Shown here: in pieces, positions 12,052 to 24,356 of the stretch
Position numbering within the stretch: position 1 is the first letter of the stretch
Layout of the letters: every line of letters begins with the position of its first letter
Source of the DNA: a virus
Length of the DNA: 24,356 nt
Virus record (IMG/VR): IMGVR_UViG_3300033144_003827
Span: 1-24,356 of that record
Strand: one strand, 5' to 3'
Made by a program: the position numbers and the translations under genes
Notes under the pieces: generated by a model
The model's input: only the letters and a program-made list of their open reading frames with translations
What the model was told of the DNA's origin: nothing
Database searches by the model: none

Positions 12052-12078
12052 GAAGACATTTTAAGTGTATCCGAAGTG

Positions 12079-12504
12079 ATGTTTCAGTTAATCCTAAACG
12101 ATCCAAGAACCGAAGAATTCATTCTTGACCTTATACGTAAGGATCAATTGTTTGACAAGGGAATAGATTCTTTAGGAGTAGAGCTTAGTGAAATTGGAGG
12201 CGATTATTCTATAGCTACTATAGAAGGTATACCTGGAATTTTCGAAGGAAAAAGAGCAAGGGGATTGCCATTTGATAGAATCACTCTTTTCAATGAAGGG
12301 GATTTCTACGAAAGCTTTGATATAGATATTGGTAAAAAAGAGGCTGAGTTTACGGCCGACTACAATAAGGACGGGTTCGATTTAAGAGATCGATGGGGGA
12401 AAAACATAGTTGATTTAACAGAAGAAAATAGACTCAAGGTAATAGATGTTTTTGAAAGAGAAACAATCAAAAAAATTGAAGAAGTCATCCGTAGAGCGGC
12501 TTAA
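12079..12504 (+). CDS. Bacteroidota phage minor tail or neck protein
   Basis: A 141-aa acidic protein, MFQLILND to the end. The central signature is GYF-like beta content with a TIEGIPGIFEGKRARGLPFD segment, then RITLFNEGDFYESFDIDI, and WGKNIVDLTEENR near the end. I recall this RITL-x-GDFY-SF and WG-I-LT layout from a family found in many Bacteroidota prophages just upstream of the tape measure; its function is not known to me. ATG 12079 is preferred to GTG 12076. The frame is open upstream to 12019 with a protein-like reading (KLYEDILSVSE) but without a start codon, so the N-terminus is uncertain. The 3' end overlaps the next gene by 59 nt. Confidence 0.75.
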   Translation: MFQLILNDPRTEEFILDLIRKDQLFDKGIDSLGVELSEIGGDYSIATIEGIPGIFEGKRARGLPFDRITLFNEGDFYESFDIDIGKKEAEFTADYNKDGFDLRDRWGKNIVDLTEENRLKVIDVFERETIKKIEEVIRRAA

Positions 12505-12943
12505 GACTTACACATCTATTCATGATCTACCTCAAAGAATCTGGAACGATATACACTCTACTGGTGATTTAAACCTACTCGTTAAAAAAGGGAGAGCAAA
12601 CGAAGTTCAGTTAAATGAATTATGGGAGAAAATATTCGATCAGTTTCTTGATGAGATTGGATTCTCTACTGATTATAGAAACGTACTTGAAAAGCAGAAG
12701 TCGATCTTAATGTTGAAGTGTGACTTAATTACCACTGGTGACAAATCATTGAAAACCATAATTCAAATTGAAGAAGAAGAGTTAGAGCAAATGACATCAG
12801 GTGGAAATGGGTTTTCCTATATGGAATCGATAATTCATATCTCCAAATTTGCCGGACACCGAATTGACGCCCAAAAAATCACAGTCGCTGAATACCATTC
12901 TTGGTTGGAAGTGATGAAAAAATCCGTTAAGAATGTCAATTAA
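12446..12943 (+). CDS. Tail-assembly protein preceding the tape measure (chaperone candidate)
   Basis: A 165-aa protein directly before the tape measure, where tail-assembly chaperones usually lie. ATG 12446 follows immediately after an in-frame TAG. The first 20 residues are very basic (MFLKEKQSKKLKKSSVERLK) and the familiar conserved part seems to begin at YTSIHDLPQRIWNDI, with WEKIFDQFLDEIG, then LITTGDKSLKTIIQIEEEEL and VAEYHSWLEVM. Starts at TTG 12452 or 12476 are possible. Within the long overlap a run of seven A (12469-12475) sits where both frames could be joined by a -2 or +1 slip, giving a fused product with the upstream gene. Independent initiation is the simpler reading. The stop overlaps the tape-measure start by 11 nt. 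Confidence 0.65.
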   Translation: MFLKEKQSKKLKKSSVERLKTYTSIHDLPQRIWNDIHSTGDLNLLVKKGRANEVQLNELWEKIFDQFLDEIGFSTDYRNVLEKQKSILMLKCDLITTGDKSLKTIIQIEEEELEQMTSGGNGFSYMESIIHISKFAGHRIDAQKITVAEYHSWLEVMKKSVKNVN

Positions 12944-16514: not shown

Positions 16515-18270
16515 TAAATGTAAATCTTGATGGACTTCAGATTTCTCGTATACAAACGAGTCGAAACAATTCAATGTATCAAGGTCTCAACCGTCTATTA
16601 CAGTTAATGCTTTAGAGTTCGTAAACATTGCAGGAAACAAAGCTGCAAGTAAGATTTTTGGCTACAAAAAAGCAGGGTTGAATGGCGGCTTAGGATTGAC
16701 TCAAGGAATGCCTTTAGATTTTTCAGTTTCAGACGATGGTTCAGAAATCGAAATTTTCAAAGGGTTTGTAGACTTCTATTCAGGATACAACAAGAAGTCT
16801 GATTCAGAGGTAGCTGTGAATATAAAAGCCTTAGACGATCTAACTTCCATTGATGCAAGAGCGGCTGGAATTACCATGGGTCTTTTAGAAGCCGAAGGGG
16901 TTTTGTCTCTATCTGACTTTGTAGATGTGCCTTATTTAATTGAAAAGCCCTTCAACCTGCTTGAGTTGGCATTACTTAGTCTTACTATTTACAACCTAGT
17001 TAAACAACAGATTGATTTAGTAAGGGAGTCAATCGACATCATTACCGCATTCACGGAAACGATCAGTATTCAGGTTGTAGGAGCTGGAGCAACTACTTCA
17101 CCTGTTGCCGCTGCATTAGGATTAGCTTTAAGATTGGCCGCGTTAACCGCTGCAAGTGTTGCGCTGTCGATTCAATTAGTTAAGTTAACAAAAGACTTGA
17201 TTGACAGAATCCTACCACCAACCAGATATCATAAAGGAATCTATCTCAAAACCCTTTTAGAGAAATCTTTTGGATACATGGGGTATCAATTCGAAAGCTC
17301 GATTTCCGAGTTGAATAACTTGGTTTATGTACCTACAAAGGAAAAGGAAGGCCCACTCAAAAAAGGCCAGCCAGGAAACGGGGCGCCAAGAGCTGGTGAT
17401 GCCGGATATCGTGTCGATGGATTAATAAACGAGACGTTGAACATGTTTTATGCCGACTTGTTTGTTCATGATGGAGTTGTTCAAATGGAGTCATTTTCAA
17501 ACACTGGGTTTTGGGATAAAACCAGTAATTATGTTTTAAGCACTCCTTTAATAGAAGACACTCCTTTTTATCAGAACGGTAGTGAGTCAGTAAACATTAA
17601 TGAACTCAATCAATTCAGGTTAATCGAATTTAAAGTTGATGATCGGGATATTTGGACACGCAGAAACTTCACGGGAACCATTTCAGAAGTACATACTACC
17701 CAAATTACAACAACAGAGAATAGAGCAGTAGGAGTCAAAGGAGTTGAGGAAGTGAAGATGCCATTCGCATTGGGGAATAGAAAGGATTCATTGACAGATC
17801 TTGAAGAGGCGATAAAAAGTCTTTTGAAATTAGTTGATAGTTTACTGAATGCTTTAGGTGGATCAAGCCAATTATCGGAAGTAATTGAAAACCGAAAAGG
17901 TAAACTGAAAATCGAGAATCATGAAATAGCAACTCCAAAACTGATTTATGTTAATCCAAATCTAAGCCTTCCTTCTAATCACAGGGATTTATGGAGTGCA
18001 TTGGTTCTTGAAATGAAATACCATGGTCAAAAGTCATTTGTAAGAAACAATTTCGGAGGTCAGTACACACTATATGAAAATGTAAAAATACCGCTAAGCT
18101 TTAGAGAAGCTGTGGAAGCTTTTAAGTCCAGGTTCTTTTCGTTAGATGACGGAAGAAGAGCTTTGTTTGATGGAAATCCTGTTTGGCTTCCAGAACTAGG
18201 ATACGGAATTATCAGCATTAGAGTTCAAGAGCCATGGACTAACAACCTTAAAGAAACATTTGTAGCATGA
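16505..18270 (+). pseudogene. Tail-tip or baseplate hub protein with apparent -1 frameshift
   Basis: ATG 16505 has a clear Shine-Dalgarno (AAAGGAG, 16492-16498) and reads MGLINVNLDGLQ before that frame stops at TAG 16613. The main frame is open from 16531 after a TGA at 16528-16530, lacks any ATG/GTG start before TTG 16678, yet is protein-like from DFSYTNESKQFNVSRSQPSI onward. Joining them at 16538-16541 (CAGATTTC) with a -1 step gives a smooth 588-aa protein. The body has two hydrophobic stretches (about corrected residues 143-168 and 189-228, VAAALGLALRLAALTAASVA) followed by a beta-rich part typical of tail-tip proteins. This may be a one-base deletion or sequencing error, a genuinely broken gene, or programmed frameshifting. 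It follows the tape measure and overlaps the next gene by ATGA. Confidence 0.7.
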
Positions 18271-18590: not shown

Positions 18591-21129
18591 AACAACAGAG
18601 AGCAAATTTTATTACCAAGGATCAAATGGTGAAAACCTCGATTTAAACCCATTACAATTCACGCAGAATTTAGCTGGTGGTGTTTTAGAAAGAGTTAAGT
18701 CGGTAAAGAAAGTAGCTGTCTCTGTACTTACGGATGCCTCTGTAGGTGTACCGTTCTTCGTAGATGGAAACGTTTTATACAGAACTTCAGGAAGTTTTGT
18801 TGATGCTGGTTTCTGGGTAGGTGATACGATAAGTGTATTTAATGAGTCAATTGGTGGAGGATGGATATTTGAAGATAGGGAGATCACCAGTATTTCAAAC
18901 GACGGTCTTCAGGTTTATTTTGATGGCCTTCCTGTTGCTGCGGTTGGTTTCGGTTCTGGTAGTTGTTACAATAAAACACCGTTAAGAGCTTTTCAATTAG
19001 GCTTCGGGATTATTCAAAACGATGAATCGTTCAATGTAATTTCAAAGATCGATGGTAGTTCTCAGCAGTTTTATTCACCGACTGAGGTTGGAGCTGGTCC
19101 TGTTGGCGCCAGAGACACATCCTTTCAAGACTGTATCCCATTAGGTACAACTAGATCATGGCTCACCAAAGATCAGGTTAGGGTTCGATTCGTTCAAGAT
19201 CTCCCATTCACTGAACTTGAAGGATATCCGCAAGAATTTGAGATTGAGCACACTTTTGAAATAGTGCCATTTGTTTTGGACGGTGAGCTTGGGAATCTTC
19301 AGAATGATATACTGCCAGAGTTGTTCCAAAACAACAACTCATTGAAGTACGCGTTTGAAGCTGAGTTTAAAACAAGTAATTCGAATCCTAACACAGCAAA
19401 AACCGGCAGGTTTGAACAGTCATTAGGAGCTGTAAGCTGGTTTAACAGAAACTTCAACAATCTAAACAATCAGTACAGCGTAGACTCAGTCGATCATACT
19501 GATGACTTAACCGCTCAAGTTGTAGATTCAATCCAAGTTGGAGCAATCACCAATAACACCCTTGTATTAAATTCAGCAGACGGGACATTTGTAAACGGTC
19601 AAAGAGTCATTTTAGATGTTTTCTACCTGGCTTCTGAGTCTGAATACCTACCTAACCCAGACGATCCAGCTTCGAGTGTAGTTTCAACTCATGACGTTCA
19701 CGAGAATTTTATATGGGAAAAGGTGGTTCTTCAGATTGGTTTAGGTAGTAGTTCATCAGGATTTATTATTGATGCTTCAGCTACTTTGCTTGGCCCAAGT
19801 CAGATTCAAATCGATTTTCAAACTCAGTATAGCGCAAGTGAACAACTCAGATTAGATCAAACCAAATACTATGGTATTGCTGTTAATTTATCAGATCAAT
19901 CAGTAGGACCTGAATTTACAGATAAGGTTCCTTTACTTTGCGAAGTAAAAGAGTATACTAAATCGGTAGATGTTCCAGATCTATTCACTGTCAATGGAAA
20001 TATTAGAGTTTTTCCGCATAATCAAAACATTGGTGTTGATTCAGGGTATACTGACTTCAAGGGCTGGGTTGAAGATGGGGTTGTACTACAGATTCCATTT
20101 GGGTTAAACTTAGATCAAATTGCTAGAGTTCAAAGTTTAGAGGTCGGAGTCATTGCTTATAACCCAATAGATGGAGATTTATTTGTGATTGATAAGTTCA
20201 ATATTAGCCTGTCTAGTCAAGTGCTGGCACCAAACGGAACTCAGTACTTTACATTGGACGGAACAAGGAACTACAAACTTGAAGATGGGAGTCAATTTAA
20301 CACACTTCAGCTGGGGCATCAGGGAACAACATTTATAAAGCCCTCCACAGTTGAACCAGGAGTGGATATTACTTACAACGGGTACTTACTTACCTGCGGT
20401 TACAAAATCCCATGGCAAGAGTGGGATTCAATTCAGGCGAATACTTCCTTTTTTAATCCTTCTCAAGAGAATAATGGACTAAATAAGAATACTTCAAATT
20501 ATGCAGGCTCTACTTTACCGGACACCACACCAAATCCGTACATCGTTGCTATGTCGGTTATGGCAAGTGTTCTAGTTGCTAATGAAGATTCGAATGACTT
20601 CGGGACTGTTACACAGTATACCTCAATTACTTCAGCTTGTACAGTTAACGATTATAGCGAAGGAAGTTCCTTTCCAGGGTGGGCTGTTTCTATAGGTACG
20701 TCTACGGTCGGTGGCGCTGATCTCGAAGGTAATATTGCTGATAGTGAAAACACGTTAATCACTACTACTTATACACCTTCAGGAGGAGATACCTCAATAA
20801 TAACAGATCCTTATGGAATAGATCGATTTGACAATGCAAACGGAGGGCCGATTTCAATAAGAGAGTTATCATCAATTCGAGGGTCAGAGTCGGATAATCC
20901 ATTAGTTCCTGTTGCAGGAGAAACATTCTTAAAATTAACAGACAATGGGACGGAAATTGTTACAGAGTCAATGATTGATTTTAACAGGATAGACCCGACC
21001 ATAGGAAAAAGAATAACCTCAAGACTGGGTTGTTTGTCTTCATCTGGCGGAATTCCACCCGGAGCAAAAATTACTGAGTCAGGAATTGTGAAGGTAACTG
21101 AGTCTGGGGATATTAAAGTAATTGAATAA
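18580..21129 (+). CDS. Large tail-tip or baseplate structural protein, 849 aa
   Basis: An 849-aa beta-rich protein with few charged clusters, many G, N, S, T and aromatic residues, no signal peptide and no membrane span, as expected for an extracellular virion appendage. The first 130 residues (KFYYQGSNGENLDLNPLQFT, VGVPFFVDGNVLYRTSGSFV) look like an attachment domain. The centre (about 250-600) has repeated beta blocks, and the end carries a short internal repeat, ITESGIVKVTESGDIKVIE, preceded by EIVTESMIDFN. Homologous large genes follow the hub in several Bacteroidota phages as I remember them, but I cannot name a domain. It could combine baseplate and receptor contact. It overlaps the next gene by TAATG-type linkage. 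Confidence 0.7.
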   Translation: MAFRTTESKFYYQGSNGENLDLNPLQFTQNLAGGVLERVKSVKKVAVSVLTDASVGVPFFVDGNVLYRTSGSFVDAGFWVGDTISVFNESIGGGWIFEDREITSISNDGLQVYFDGLPVAAVGFGSGSCYNKTPLRAFQLGFGIIQNDESFNVISKIDGSSQQFYSPTEVGAGPVGARDTSFQDCIPLGTTRSWLTKDQVRVRFVQDLPFTELEGYPQEFEIEHTFEIVPFVLDGELGNLQNDILPELFQNNNSLKYAFEAEFKTSNSNPNTAKTGRFEQSLGAVSWFNRNFNNLNNQYSVDSVDHTDDLTAQVVDSIQVGAITNNTLVLNSADGTFVNGQRVILDVFYLASESEYLPNPDDPASSVVSTHDVHENFIWEKVVLQIGLGSSSSGFIIDASATLLGPSQIQIDFQTQYSASEQLRLDQTKYYGIAVNLSDQSVGPEFTDKVPLLCEVKEYTKSVDVPDLFTVNGNIRVFPHNQNIGVDSGYTDFKGWVEDGVVLQIPFGLNLDQIARVQSLEVGVIAYNPIDGDLFVIDKFNISLSSQVLAPNGTQYFTLDGTRNYKLEDGSQFNTLQLGHQGTTFIKPSTVEPGVDITYNGYLLTCGYKIPWQEWDSIQANTSFFNPSQENNGLNKNTSNYAGSTLPDTTPNPYIVAMSVMASVLVANEDSNDFGTVTQYTSITSACTVNDYSEGSSFPGWAVSIGTSTVGGADLEGNIADSENTLITTTYTPSGGDTSIITDPYGIDRFDNANGGPISIRELSSIRGSESDNPLVPVAGETFLKLTDNGTEIVTESMIDFNRIDPTIGKRITSRLGCLSSSGGIPPGAKITESGIVKVTESGDIKVIE

Positions 21130-22073
21130 TGATATTAGAGCGACTAACAAACCCTAATCCAATGCCGCTTTGCGTGGCTCAAGATAAAATTGATGTAAAG
21201 GTATTAAGACTTCCTAGTGATGTGGTAAAATTAGATTTCCCATCATGCAGGTGTCCTATTAGTATTCCGGTTTTTGCGGATTCAACAGATTCATCATCTC
21301 ATTTGAATGACATACTTCCGAGTTTATATAGAAAGGTAGTGAGTGCCGATACTTTTGTTTTCAGTCTGGAAAAAGATGGAGTAGAAGTGTTTGATGATAA
21401 TCAGATTAGAAACGGCGATGCTGGAGAGTTTTATGACATCGGAACGTGGAGTACATTTTCGGAGCAAGAGAATTACATAGGTATTATTATCCATTGGCGA
21501 ACAGTTCTATCCGCTCACGGGCCAGGGGAATATGTACTGAAAGCAGATAAAACTATACTTGGTATCGCAAGTCAAGAAGTGTCTGCAACGTATAAGCTTA
21601 TGAATTTCGGGCCAGCCGCATTAGGAACTGTAAGAATTGATGGTATTCAGTCAGGGAGAATTGATAGCGCTGATTTCGACTACACCGACTTGGTTACAAA
21701 TGGTCGCTCAGGATGGCCGCAACAAATTCGAATCAAGGGAGAGTTCATTCCTGAAGACGATTCGCATGAGAAAGACTTTATTCTAGACGGACAGAGAAAG
21801 AAACAGCAAATACAAAGAAGCGTTGTTAAGAATTACACACTTAACACTAAGCTAATACCTTCTGAAATCAGTGAGTTAATTAGGTATAATTACCTTTTAG
21901 CAAATCAACTTACTATAACAGATTATAACCCAAATAATAACATTGGAGACTTTATCGAAGTACCTGTTGAATTCGAAGAGCCGACCGACTTTATCCCTTC
22001 ACGACAACAAAAGTCAATCATTCATAAGTGGTCGTTTACGGGTAAGAAAGATATTAGAAAGAGTAATCCTTAG
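21129..22073 (+). CDS. Baseplate or tail-associated protein, 314 aa
   Basis: A 314-aa protein starting at ATG 21129. The N-terminal region contains a Cys pair (FPSCRCPISIPVF) and beta strands. The middle holds YDIGTWSTFSEQENYIGIII and GEYVLKADKTILGIA. The C-terminal half is diagnostic in feel: GRSGWPQQIRIKGEFIPED, FILDGQRKKQQIQRSVVKNY and LIRYNYLLANQLTITDYNPN, a pattern I associate with a conserved tail protein of Bacteroidota phages that may form part of the tail tip. It ends 63 nt before the next gene, where a promoter candidate lies, so it closes the tail-tip block. Confidence 0.7.
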   Translation: MILERLTNPNPMPLCVAQDKIDVKVLRLPSDVVKLDFPSCRCPISIPVFADSTDSSSHLNDILPSLYRKVVSADTFVFSLEKDGVEVFDDNQIRNGDAGEFYDIGTWSTFSEQENYIGIIIHWRTVLSAHGPGEYVLKADKTILGIASQEVSATYKLMNFGPAALGTVRIDGIQSGRIDSADFDYTDLVTNGRSGWPQQIRIKGEFIPEDDSHEKDFILDGQRKKQQIQRSVVKNYTLNTKLIPSEISELIRYNYLLANQLTITDYNPNNNIGDFIEVPVEFEEPTDFIPSRQQKSIIHKWSFTGKKDIRKSNP

Positions 22074-23473: not shown

Positions 23474-23725
23474 ATGATAATTCAATCAACCAAAATGATG
23501 ATCATAGAAGGATTAAAAGATGTCGCTATTGGCTTATTCGGTATGTTGATTACTTGGTTCGCCCCAACAGTTCAACTAGAAGTTTTGCCGCTGGTAACAG
23601 ATGTGAGCGACACAGTCAACTCAATAGTCCAAACCTTAGCTACTGTCTCAGGTCTATACCTGGTGGTTGTTAAGGCTATGAAAGGCCATTTAGACCTGAT
23701 GGATAAAATAAAAAAGAATAAGTAA
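23474..23725 (+). CDS. Small two-span membrane protein, holin candidate A
   Basis: An 83-aa protein with two predicted membrane helices, about residues 16-33 (DVAIGLFGMLITWFAP region) and 50-68 (VQTLATVSGLYLVVVKA region), separated by a short acidic loop, and ending in a basic tail (MDKIKKNK). This layout fits class II holins, which make the inner-membrane hole for the endolysin. ATG 23474 is used; ATG codons 8 and 9 are alternative starts and a dual-start antiholin pair is conceivable. The stop overlaps the next gene's ATG (TAATG). An overlapping frame at 23467-23673 is a shadow. Confidence 0.6.
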   Translation: MIIQSTKMMIIEGLKDVAIGLFGMLITWFAPTVQLEVLPLVTDVSDTVNSIVQTLATVSGLYLVVVKAMKGHLDLMDKIKKNK

Positions 23726-23916
23726 TGAGCATAAAGGATTTAAATAAACCAACACCTAGTAAGTGGAAGAAAATCGGGAACATCCTTTTGTTAGTTTCTG
23801 GTATGTTGTCGGCGATTTCACTTAGCCTTGAGCACGAATATATTTCTATCGCATTAGTGGTTTGCGGGGCCATAGGCAAGTTTCTAACTGAACTTACAAC
23901 TGATGAAATTAAATAG
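23725..23916 (+). CDS. Small two-span membrane protein, holin candidate B
   Basis: A 63-aa protein with the opening KPTPSKWKKIGNILLLVSGM, which I associate with short Bacteroidota phage membrane proteins in lysis regions, then a second span around ISIALVVCGAIGKFL and a short acidic end (TTDEIK). N-in and C-in topology is likely from the basic N-terminus. It is translationally coupled to the previous gene and overlaps the next by 14 nt. It may act as holin with candidate A as antiholin or pinholin, or the reverse. Confidence 0.6.
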   Translation: MSIKDLNKPTPSKWKKIGNILLLVSGMLSAISLSLEHEYISIALVVCGAIGKFLTELTTDEIK

Positions 23917-24160
23917 ATACCACATTATAGGGATAGGAGTAGCGGTCATTTTAGCTTTTATCGTTTTGCAATGGCCCTCTCCATCCGTGGTAATCCCTGT
24001 AGAAAATGAAGAGAGAATAGAGGAGTTAGAAGATCGAATCGAATCCGAAAAAGAAACAATCAAAACAAAGGACTATGAGATTATTAAAGGTCATGACCAT
24101 ATTGATAGGCTTGATTACAAGCAGCGTGACAGTTTGCGCGCAATCCTTAATCCAAGTTGA
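23903..24160 (+). CDS. Inner-membrane spanin-like protein (Rz-like)
   Basis: An 85-aa protein with a short basic N-terminus, one membrane helix (about residues 8-23, IIGIGVAVILAFIVLQ) and an extended charged coiled coil (about 35-75, ERIEELEDRIESEKETIKTK) projecting to the periplasm. This is the layout of i-spanins such as lambda Rz, which link to an outer-membrane partner to fuse the membranes at the end of lysis. Its size is short for Rz. The partner gene is nested out of frame at its 3' end (start 24093), the classic embedded arrangement. No catalytic motif is present. Confidence 0.7.
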   Translation: MKLNRYHIIGIGVAVILAFIVLQWPSPSVVIPVENEERIEELEDRIESEKETIKTKDYEIIKGHDHIDRLDYKQRDSLRAILNPS

Positions 24161-24356
24161 CTCATGCGATTGTTTACCTCCCAGGGTATGTTATACCGAA
24201 CAGCAAGATAGAAATTGCTTAAAAGCCTTTGTTACCATCCAACACCAAAAAGTAATTATCCAATCCTTGGAAAGAGTCACAAGAGACCAAGAGGAATTGA
24301 ATAAAAGCAAAGACTACACCATCTCCCAACAAAAGAAGCAACTCAAAAAAGCAAGA
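24093..24356 (+). CDS. Nested secreted protein with coiled coil, o-spanin-like candidate (partial)
   Basis: In the +1 frame relative to the spanin-like gene, ATG 24093 opens a frame that stays open for 88 codons to the last base of the window. The N-terminus is a hydrophobic signal-like segment (MTILIGLITSSVTVCAQS) with a possible signal peptidase I site after VCA, then a Cys-rich stretch (Cys 25, 27, 33, 42) and a charged helix (QKVIIQSLERVTRDQEELNK). A GTG at 24126 is an alternative start but would lose the signal. The n-region lacks basic residues and the Cys at 15 does not fit a normal lipobox, so lipoprotein status is uncertain. Nested overlap with an Rz-like gene suggests an outer spanin or periplasmic partner. 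Confidence 0.55.
   Translation, partial: MTILIGLITSSVTVCAQSLIQVDSCDCLPPRVCYTEQQDRNCLKAFVTIQHQKVIIQSLERVTRDQEELNKSKDYTISQQKKQLKKAR

Follow-up and report, generated by a model that had tools for sequence, protein, structure and literature searches.

A nested, lipobox-free candidate spanin pair at the end of a flavobacterial phage record

The IMG/VR record IMGVR_UViG_3300033144_003827 comprises 24,356 bases, and the stretch of DNA analysed here (the window) covers it whole. It encodes a piece of a tailed phage, in which an Sf6-type small terminase subunit, a large terminase and a tape measure protein are recognised by Pfam and PHROGs, and its 16678-18270 protein matches 32 records of named phages, all of them Flavobacterium phages and each below 60% identity. 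The ORFs 12076-12504 and 12446-12943, upstream of the tape measure gene, overlap and may be linked by a programmed frameshift, since the equivalent position in phage 1/32 is occupied by a joined tail assembly chaperone. The last 0.9 kb of the record hold the following features.

23474..23725, + strand: 83-aa protein with two hydrophobic spans, holin or antiholin candidate (ORF, hydropathy, coding score)
23725..23916, + strand: 63-aa protein with two hydrophobic spans, holin candidate (ORF, hydropathy)
23903..24160, + strand: 85-aa type II membrane protein, i-spanin candidate (ORF, hydropathy, profile comparison with relatives)
24075..24356, + strand: nested +1-frame exported protein of at least 94 aa, o-spanin candidate (ORF, open-frame, signal and nested-pair tests)
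24075..24140, + strand: predicted signal peptide MRLLKVMTILIGLITSSVTVCA of the nested protein (sequence, Q-rule, lipobox consensus)
24141..24356, + strand: predicted mature part of the nested protein, with Gln, four cysteines, a helix-like charged stretch and a basic KKQLKKAR at the record end (sequence)

The four overlapping reading frames that a first-pass annotation had described as a lysis block are all present: the ATG of the 23725 ORF overlaps the stop of the preceding gene by 1 nt (TAATG), the 23903 ORF overlaps the 23725 ORF by 14 nt, and the nested ORF overlaps the 23903 gene by 86 nt in the +1 frame. Codon usage of the first three is gene-like (0.235, 0.244 and 0.276 bits per codon for the 23474, 23725 and 23903 ORFs). 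No endolysin was recognised among the window proteins scanned with Pfam and PHROGs, so that the 'lysis block' is incomplete.

For the two putative holins, the two-span architecture on which the same annotation had based its proposal stands, and neither protein matched a named holin family in Pfam or PHROGs. The 23474-23725 protein found no relative in the viral_contigs scan, and tblastn in phages with both small proteins returned weak matches that are probably due to chance. The top scorer of the 63-aa protein among 2592 ORFs was a two-span protein beside an endolysin-like gene (L069 20098-20334), a rank that pairwise BLASTP, which gave no alignment between the two proteins, did not confirm. 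The holin assignments are weaker than the spanin-pair reading developed below. The lysis region of record L089 (239-620) likewise encodes two short two-span proteins, of 72 and 57 aa, that overlap and resemble these candidates.

The 23903 protein has a single N-terminal span (residues 8-24 of 85) followed by a charged remainder, a topology from which we infer the periplasmic orientation and helical outer part expected of an i-spanin. For this protein neither Pfam nor PHROGs returned a named spanin model, tblastn found nothing in phages, and a search of 19 related records gave no match. A profile of the i-spanins of the relatives described below aligned with its N-terminal part alone (probability 54), and the C-terminal similarity had p=0.047.

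The nested frame, which had been noted as out of frame and without a stop in the window, indeed reaches the record end, 24356, after 94 codons without meeting a stop; its start had been placed at 24093, and 24075 fits better and is the more likely one, since the in-frame ATG 18 nt earlier adds a basic n-region (MRLLKV). The first 22 residues of the protein end in VTVCA, with Gln next. The atypical signal that had been claimed, lacking a usual lipobox and accompanied by several cysteines, is borne out: VTVC breaks the consensus [LVI][ASTVI][GAS]C, as given in a passage of PMC6139136, at position -1 (Val), and the protein has five cysteines. Cleavage by signal peptidase I leaves Gln at the new N-terminus of most of its substrates in Bacteroidetes (the 'Q-rule', according to an excerpt of PMC5837995), and VCA|Q is on its sequence the more likely processing site. 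Cleavage there would remove the cysteine of VTVC and leave four of the five cysteines in the mature protein, where disulfide linking is possible. Because a consensus lipobox is lacking and a Q-rule site is present, the nested protein is probably not lipidated. In a crude Q-rule signal test the nested ORF passed, as did 0/315 spurious ORFs and 21/1290 other ORFs; the same test was passed by just 4 of the 9 nested-pair relatives introduced below.

Searches with the nested protein itself gave no named family match in Pfam or PHROGs, no hit by tblastn in phages and no relative in the viral_contigs scan, and searches of 24 and 23 records returned one chance-level match, which lies inside a larger ORF. 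Context comes from related phages. The near-identical contig L002 stops within its homologue of the 21129-22073 gene, short of the spanin region, and a 31-mer near the record end has no exact match in viral_contigs; other relatives share approximately 24-33% identity in the flanking tail proteins. A homologue of 21129-22073 was found in 18 of 23 records searched, and the downstream content could be read in 17 of these 18. Several have holin, endolysin and spanin-like genes there, the latter of several kinds, and most relatives use layouts other than a nested pair. Among these genes are some for single-chain proteins that carry a lipobox and a C-terminal span (e.g. L093 1367-1930 and L095 912-1361) and others for single chains whose span is N-terminal and whose C-terminal end is either beta-rich or short and hydrophobic (L090, L097, L103; L087, L089), while in some records (e.g. 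L088, L094 and L098) no spanin-like gene was seen downstream. The chains of L090 (1276-2037, reverse complement), L097 (3693-4388) and L103 (6166-6822), all in lysis regions, combine an N-terminal span with a beta-like, glycine-rich C-terminus and are possible unimolecular spanins of reversed polarity.

Two of these records, L096 and L101, carry a nested pair: a holin-like gene, an amidase gene and a gene for a type II protein of 118-124 aa are followed by a nested +1 ORF for an exported protein of 165-172 aa. Croceibacter phage P2559S has the same organization, with endolysin gp28, inner partner gp29 and a nested 185-aa ORF (L104 4947-5504; NC_018276 27508-28065) of which GenBank gp30 is the C-terminal part only, and a metagenome protein (L112) matches the P2559S nested protein over its whole length at 54.5%. 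The viral_contigs scan yielded 8 loci, including the L096/L101 records and P2559S, with a nested pair in 8/8, and genome_contigs added one further pair, making 9 distinct loci. This ninth locus (L113, JAJOLD010000018.1) is a 3-kb contig labelled Candidatus Paceibacterota that encodes a phage tail protein homologue, an amidase and the nested pair, and is probably a misbinned phage piece. Eight loci include the gene directly upstream of the pair. Pfam identifies it as an amidase in six of them (L105, L106, L107, L109, L110 and L113), and for its counterparts in L108 and L112 gives no match to an endolysin family.

The frame shift is +1 in all nine loci as in the window, with overlaps of 83-167 nt (86 nt in the window). 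Two close pairs of relatives differ in the nested frame outside the overlap at 8, 1, 18 and 7, 4, 13 sites of codon positions 1, 2, 3, and this excess at third positions indicates that the relatives' nested frame is protein-coding. Their i-spanins match PHROG models annotated as Rz-like spanin: phrog_1152 in 4/8 (best 8.9e-4), phrog_89 in 3/8 (best 7e-6) and phrog_739 in 3/8. An S|Q site and a cysteine-free mature part are common to all nine nested partners, so that their sequence rules out a lipid on the mature N-terminus, and all eight complete ones end in F or W. No convincing family was found for these outer partners: the Pfam matches were those of single members to unrelated coiled-coil families, and PDB sequence matches stayed at the level of coiled-coil noise.

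A scan for a type II protein with a nested exported ORF, by a rule that was post hoc, written after the cases had been seen, picked out the window's pair as the sole match in the window and 16 further matches in 113 loci, 12 of them in one homologous family whose members had been fetched by homology and 4 outside it; on the same sequences reversed it gave 0 matches. An [YHN]E signature at the nested start, read in the i-spanin frame and present in all 10 pairs, was rejected as evidence, since any +1-frame start of the M-K/R type produces it.

The predicted structure of the relatives' outer partner suggests how it might be anchored. AlphaFold2 monomer models of the L105 and P2559S partners (mean pLDDT 69.7 and 71.2, pTM 0.30 each) both consist of a helix of ∼70 residues and then four C-terminal strands (residues 119-128, 134-144, 147-154 and 162-169 in L105; 131-142, 147-158, 161-170 and 173-182 in P2559S). 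The first Foldseek PDB match of the L105 model was the membrane domain of the trimeric autotransporter AtaA (9vnj, E 0.041, probability 0.98), with the YadA anchor at rank 12, and that of the P2559S model was the strands of the autotransporter EspP (E 0.22, probability 0.97); these matches are weak, none reaching E 0.001. VIA-align gave the L105 model Z scores of 4.6 with AtaA, 3.8 with Hia and 4.9 with the EspP strands, and unrelated folds scored higher; all Z scores were below 6.5, with unrelated folds mixed in. Alternation in the last strand had p<0.05 in 3 of 8 relatives. A 12-strand trimeric barrel carrying a coiled coil would be compatible with the topology of the modelled monomers. What the relatives' partners share with the trimeric autotransporter anchors AtaA, YadA and Hia is a helix with four strands after it, a likeness that belongs to the relatives and comes from weak matches.

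A second nested layout was found in Tenacibaculum phage JQ, where an amidase (Pfam) and a two-span protein are followed by a 116-aa type II protein and a nested +1 exported protein of 122 aa (YC|Q); this partner is unannotated and ends in a hydrophobic segment (L117 4037-4405; MT002873.2 28027-28395). JQ was the sole positive among 6 loci tested with the nested-pair rule, by which B124-14, Cellulophaga phi18:1 and phi12:1, Elizabethkingia TCUEAP2 and P12024L have no nested pair. In Bacteroides phage B124-14, a 201-aa protein with an N-terminal span and no obvious lipobox is encoded right after the endolysin gene (L114 6765-7370, minus strand). The window's nested protein has no direct similarity to the JQ partner, nor any direct similarity or profile match to the P2559S family, and neither of the window's two proteins shows significant homology to the P2559S family or JQ. 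When its C-terminal 44 residues were compared with 2592 ORFs, the best score (60) fell on the C-terminal part of a single-chain spanin-like protein in L048 (12106-12585), which has LKKAR followed by RRN and a hydrophobic end. None of 2000 permutations did as well; the next two ORFs, long unrelated proteins, scored 58 and 56, and the likeness is therefore a hint only. If real, it implies that the window's nested protein is cut just before a hydrophobic anchor.

Taken together, the observed frames and signals, the lack of a consensus lipobox and the arrangement conserved in relatives make a spanin pair the likely reading of the window itself; its processing, pairing, anchoring and function are proposed on that basis. 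The spanin pair proposed in the first-pass annotation gains from the architecture and from the same +1 nested arrangement in the relatives' lysis cassettes, and not from homology, the window proteins having no significant homology to those of the relatives; with the window's anchor expected beyond the record as well, the reading of the window is one that we infer. The other mode of outer membrane anchoring raised there is strongly suggested in the relatives by their Cys-free mature partners and predicted C-terminal beta-strands, and in the window the anchor would lie beyond the record end.

We favour, at somewhat better than even confidence, a two-component spanin of reversed polarity, belonging to a Bacteroidota (flavobacterial) siphophage, in which the outer partner is no lipoprotein and has a non-lipid, C-terminal outer membrane anchor. 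The putative 23474 and 23725 holins would breach the inner membrane, leaving the wall to be removed by an endolysin whose gene would lie outside the window. The 23903 protein would sit with its N-terminus in the inner membrane and its helix pointing outward. The 24075 protein, which bears the signal, would be exported and cut by signal peptidase I before Gln and, probably cross-linked by its cysteines, would pair with the 23903 protein. Judging from the relatives, either a short hydrophobic segment or a beta-strand anchor at its C-terminus would fix the 24075 protein in the outer membrane, and collapse of the complex would bring the two membranes together. Because the only evident outer membrane anchor of the relatives' partners is C-terminal, inner and outer partner would both run N to C from the inner to the outer membrane, the reverse of Rz1. 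In lambda, Rz1 has its N-terminal lipid in the outer membrane and meets Rz by its C-terminus. Single chains that begin with a span and end in an anchor would be accounted for by the same polarity. Counting against this reading, besides the lack of homology, are the codon usage of the nested ORF given below, the failure to recognise an endolysin in the window, the weak structural matches of the models, and the other spanin layouts of most relatives.

The alternative that fares best, although we regard it as unlikely, is that the nested protein ends in a true inner membrane helix, so that both products reside in the inner membrane and, without bridging the two membranes, either target the holin or play a regulatory role in the periplasm. 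The C-terminal sequence of the nested protein is after all most like that of a protein with a hydrophobic end, and the JQ partner ends likewise. However, the N-terminus of the L048 protein already spans the inner membrane, which would free its C-terminal segment for the outer membrane, and nested pairs beside endolysins have the classical spanin layout as outlined in part of PMC6139136.

Slightly less probable still is an ordinary two-component spanin in which VTVC, an atypical lipobox, is the processing site and the nested protein, like lambda Rz1, a lipoprotein. A cysteine does stand at the end of its hydrophobic stretch, and unusual lipoboxes such as AWAC function (PMC6139136, in the section concerned), but Val at -1 is outside the consensus, the Q-rule site follows directly, and the mature partners of the relatives are devoid of cysteine.

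We attach the same low probability to the view that the nested frame is not a gene and that the i-spanin acts alone or with a partner encoded outside the window. Such a view would account for the codon usage of the non-overlapping part of the ORF, which is not gene-like and near zero (-0.002 bits per codon; 23 other genes, 0.23-0.55), and draws on the absence of any homologue found and on a frame cut by the record end. Against it, the 195 nt from 24162 to the end have no stop in the nested frame and 2-4 stops in each of the other five, and the nested frame stays open in 79 of 5000 dinucleotide shuffles of this stretch; furthermore, the ORF begins with a signal peptide and Q-rule site, and ∼200 nt of a compact genome would otherwise be non-coding. 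That these genes encode small membrane proteins of another role behind the tail genes, and are not a lysis block at all, is very improbable: the window has no endolysin and none of the genes has a named family match, but holin, endolysin and spanin-like genes lie downstream of the 21129-22073 homologue in several relatives.

The preferred reading, a lipid-free pair of reversed polarity, can be set against known systems. With Rz/Rz1 (Kongari et al., 2018, PMC6139136, as far as described in the part consulted) the window shares a type II inner partner and an exported out-of-frame partner in an overlapping gene, along with small holin-like genes upstream and periplasmic cysteines; it departs from them in having no consensus lipobox, predicted signal peptidase I processing and an expected C-terminal anchor in place of the N-terminal lipid. 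Unimolecular spanins such as T1 gp11 likewise anchor both ends of their periplasmic part in a membrane, whereas the window has two ORFs in different frames and no consensus lipobox, and the polarity of gp11, with its N-terminal lipid in the outer membrane and its C-terminal anchor in the inner membrane, is opposite to that proposed for the window. In P2559S and the 8 other loci, as in the window, a +1 nested ORF overlaps the end of the i-spanin gene (by 83-167 nt, against 86 nt in the window) and the partner combines a Q-rule signal and a helical periplasmic part with the absence of a lipobox; their partners differ in being Cys-free in the mature part and in their four predicted C-terminal beta-strands, and have no significant similarity to the window's partner.

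P2559S, P2559Y and B124-14 are listed, in a portion of the 2018 survey (PMC6139136), among 91 phages without an identified spanin, and a passage of the same paper concedes that an outer membrane protein could in principle serve as o-spanin, while leaving this out of consideration. According to excerpts of a 2025 survey (PMC12596118), o-spanin candidates without a lipid box were removed and Bacteroidetes phages are said to use unimolecular spanins exclusively; for North Sea flavophages, too, a passage of PMC8776804 describes unimolecular spanins. Our literature search, limited to open-licence papers, found no earlier report of the lipobox-free nested layout; prior publication is possible. We tentatively suggest, at a little under even confidence, that flavobacterial phages use lipid-free spanins of reversed polarity with a C-terminal protein anchor, either four-stranded and trimeric-autotransporter-like or short and hydrophobic, in the form of nested pairs (the window, P2559S and JQ) or single chains (such as L048), and that these have been missed because searches require a lipobox. 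As spanin catalogues demand one in the outer partner, lipobox-free nested pairs would fill part of the Bacteroidota gap and would give gene finders a new signature, and the manner in which 'spanin-less' phages cross the outer membrane would become testable in an isolated phage.
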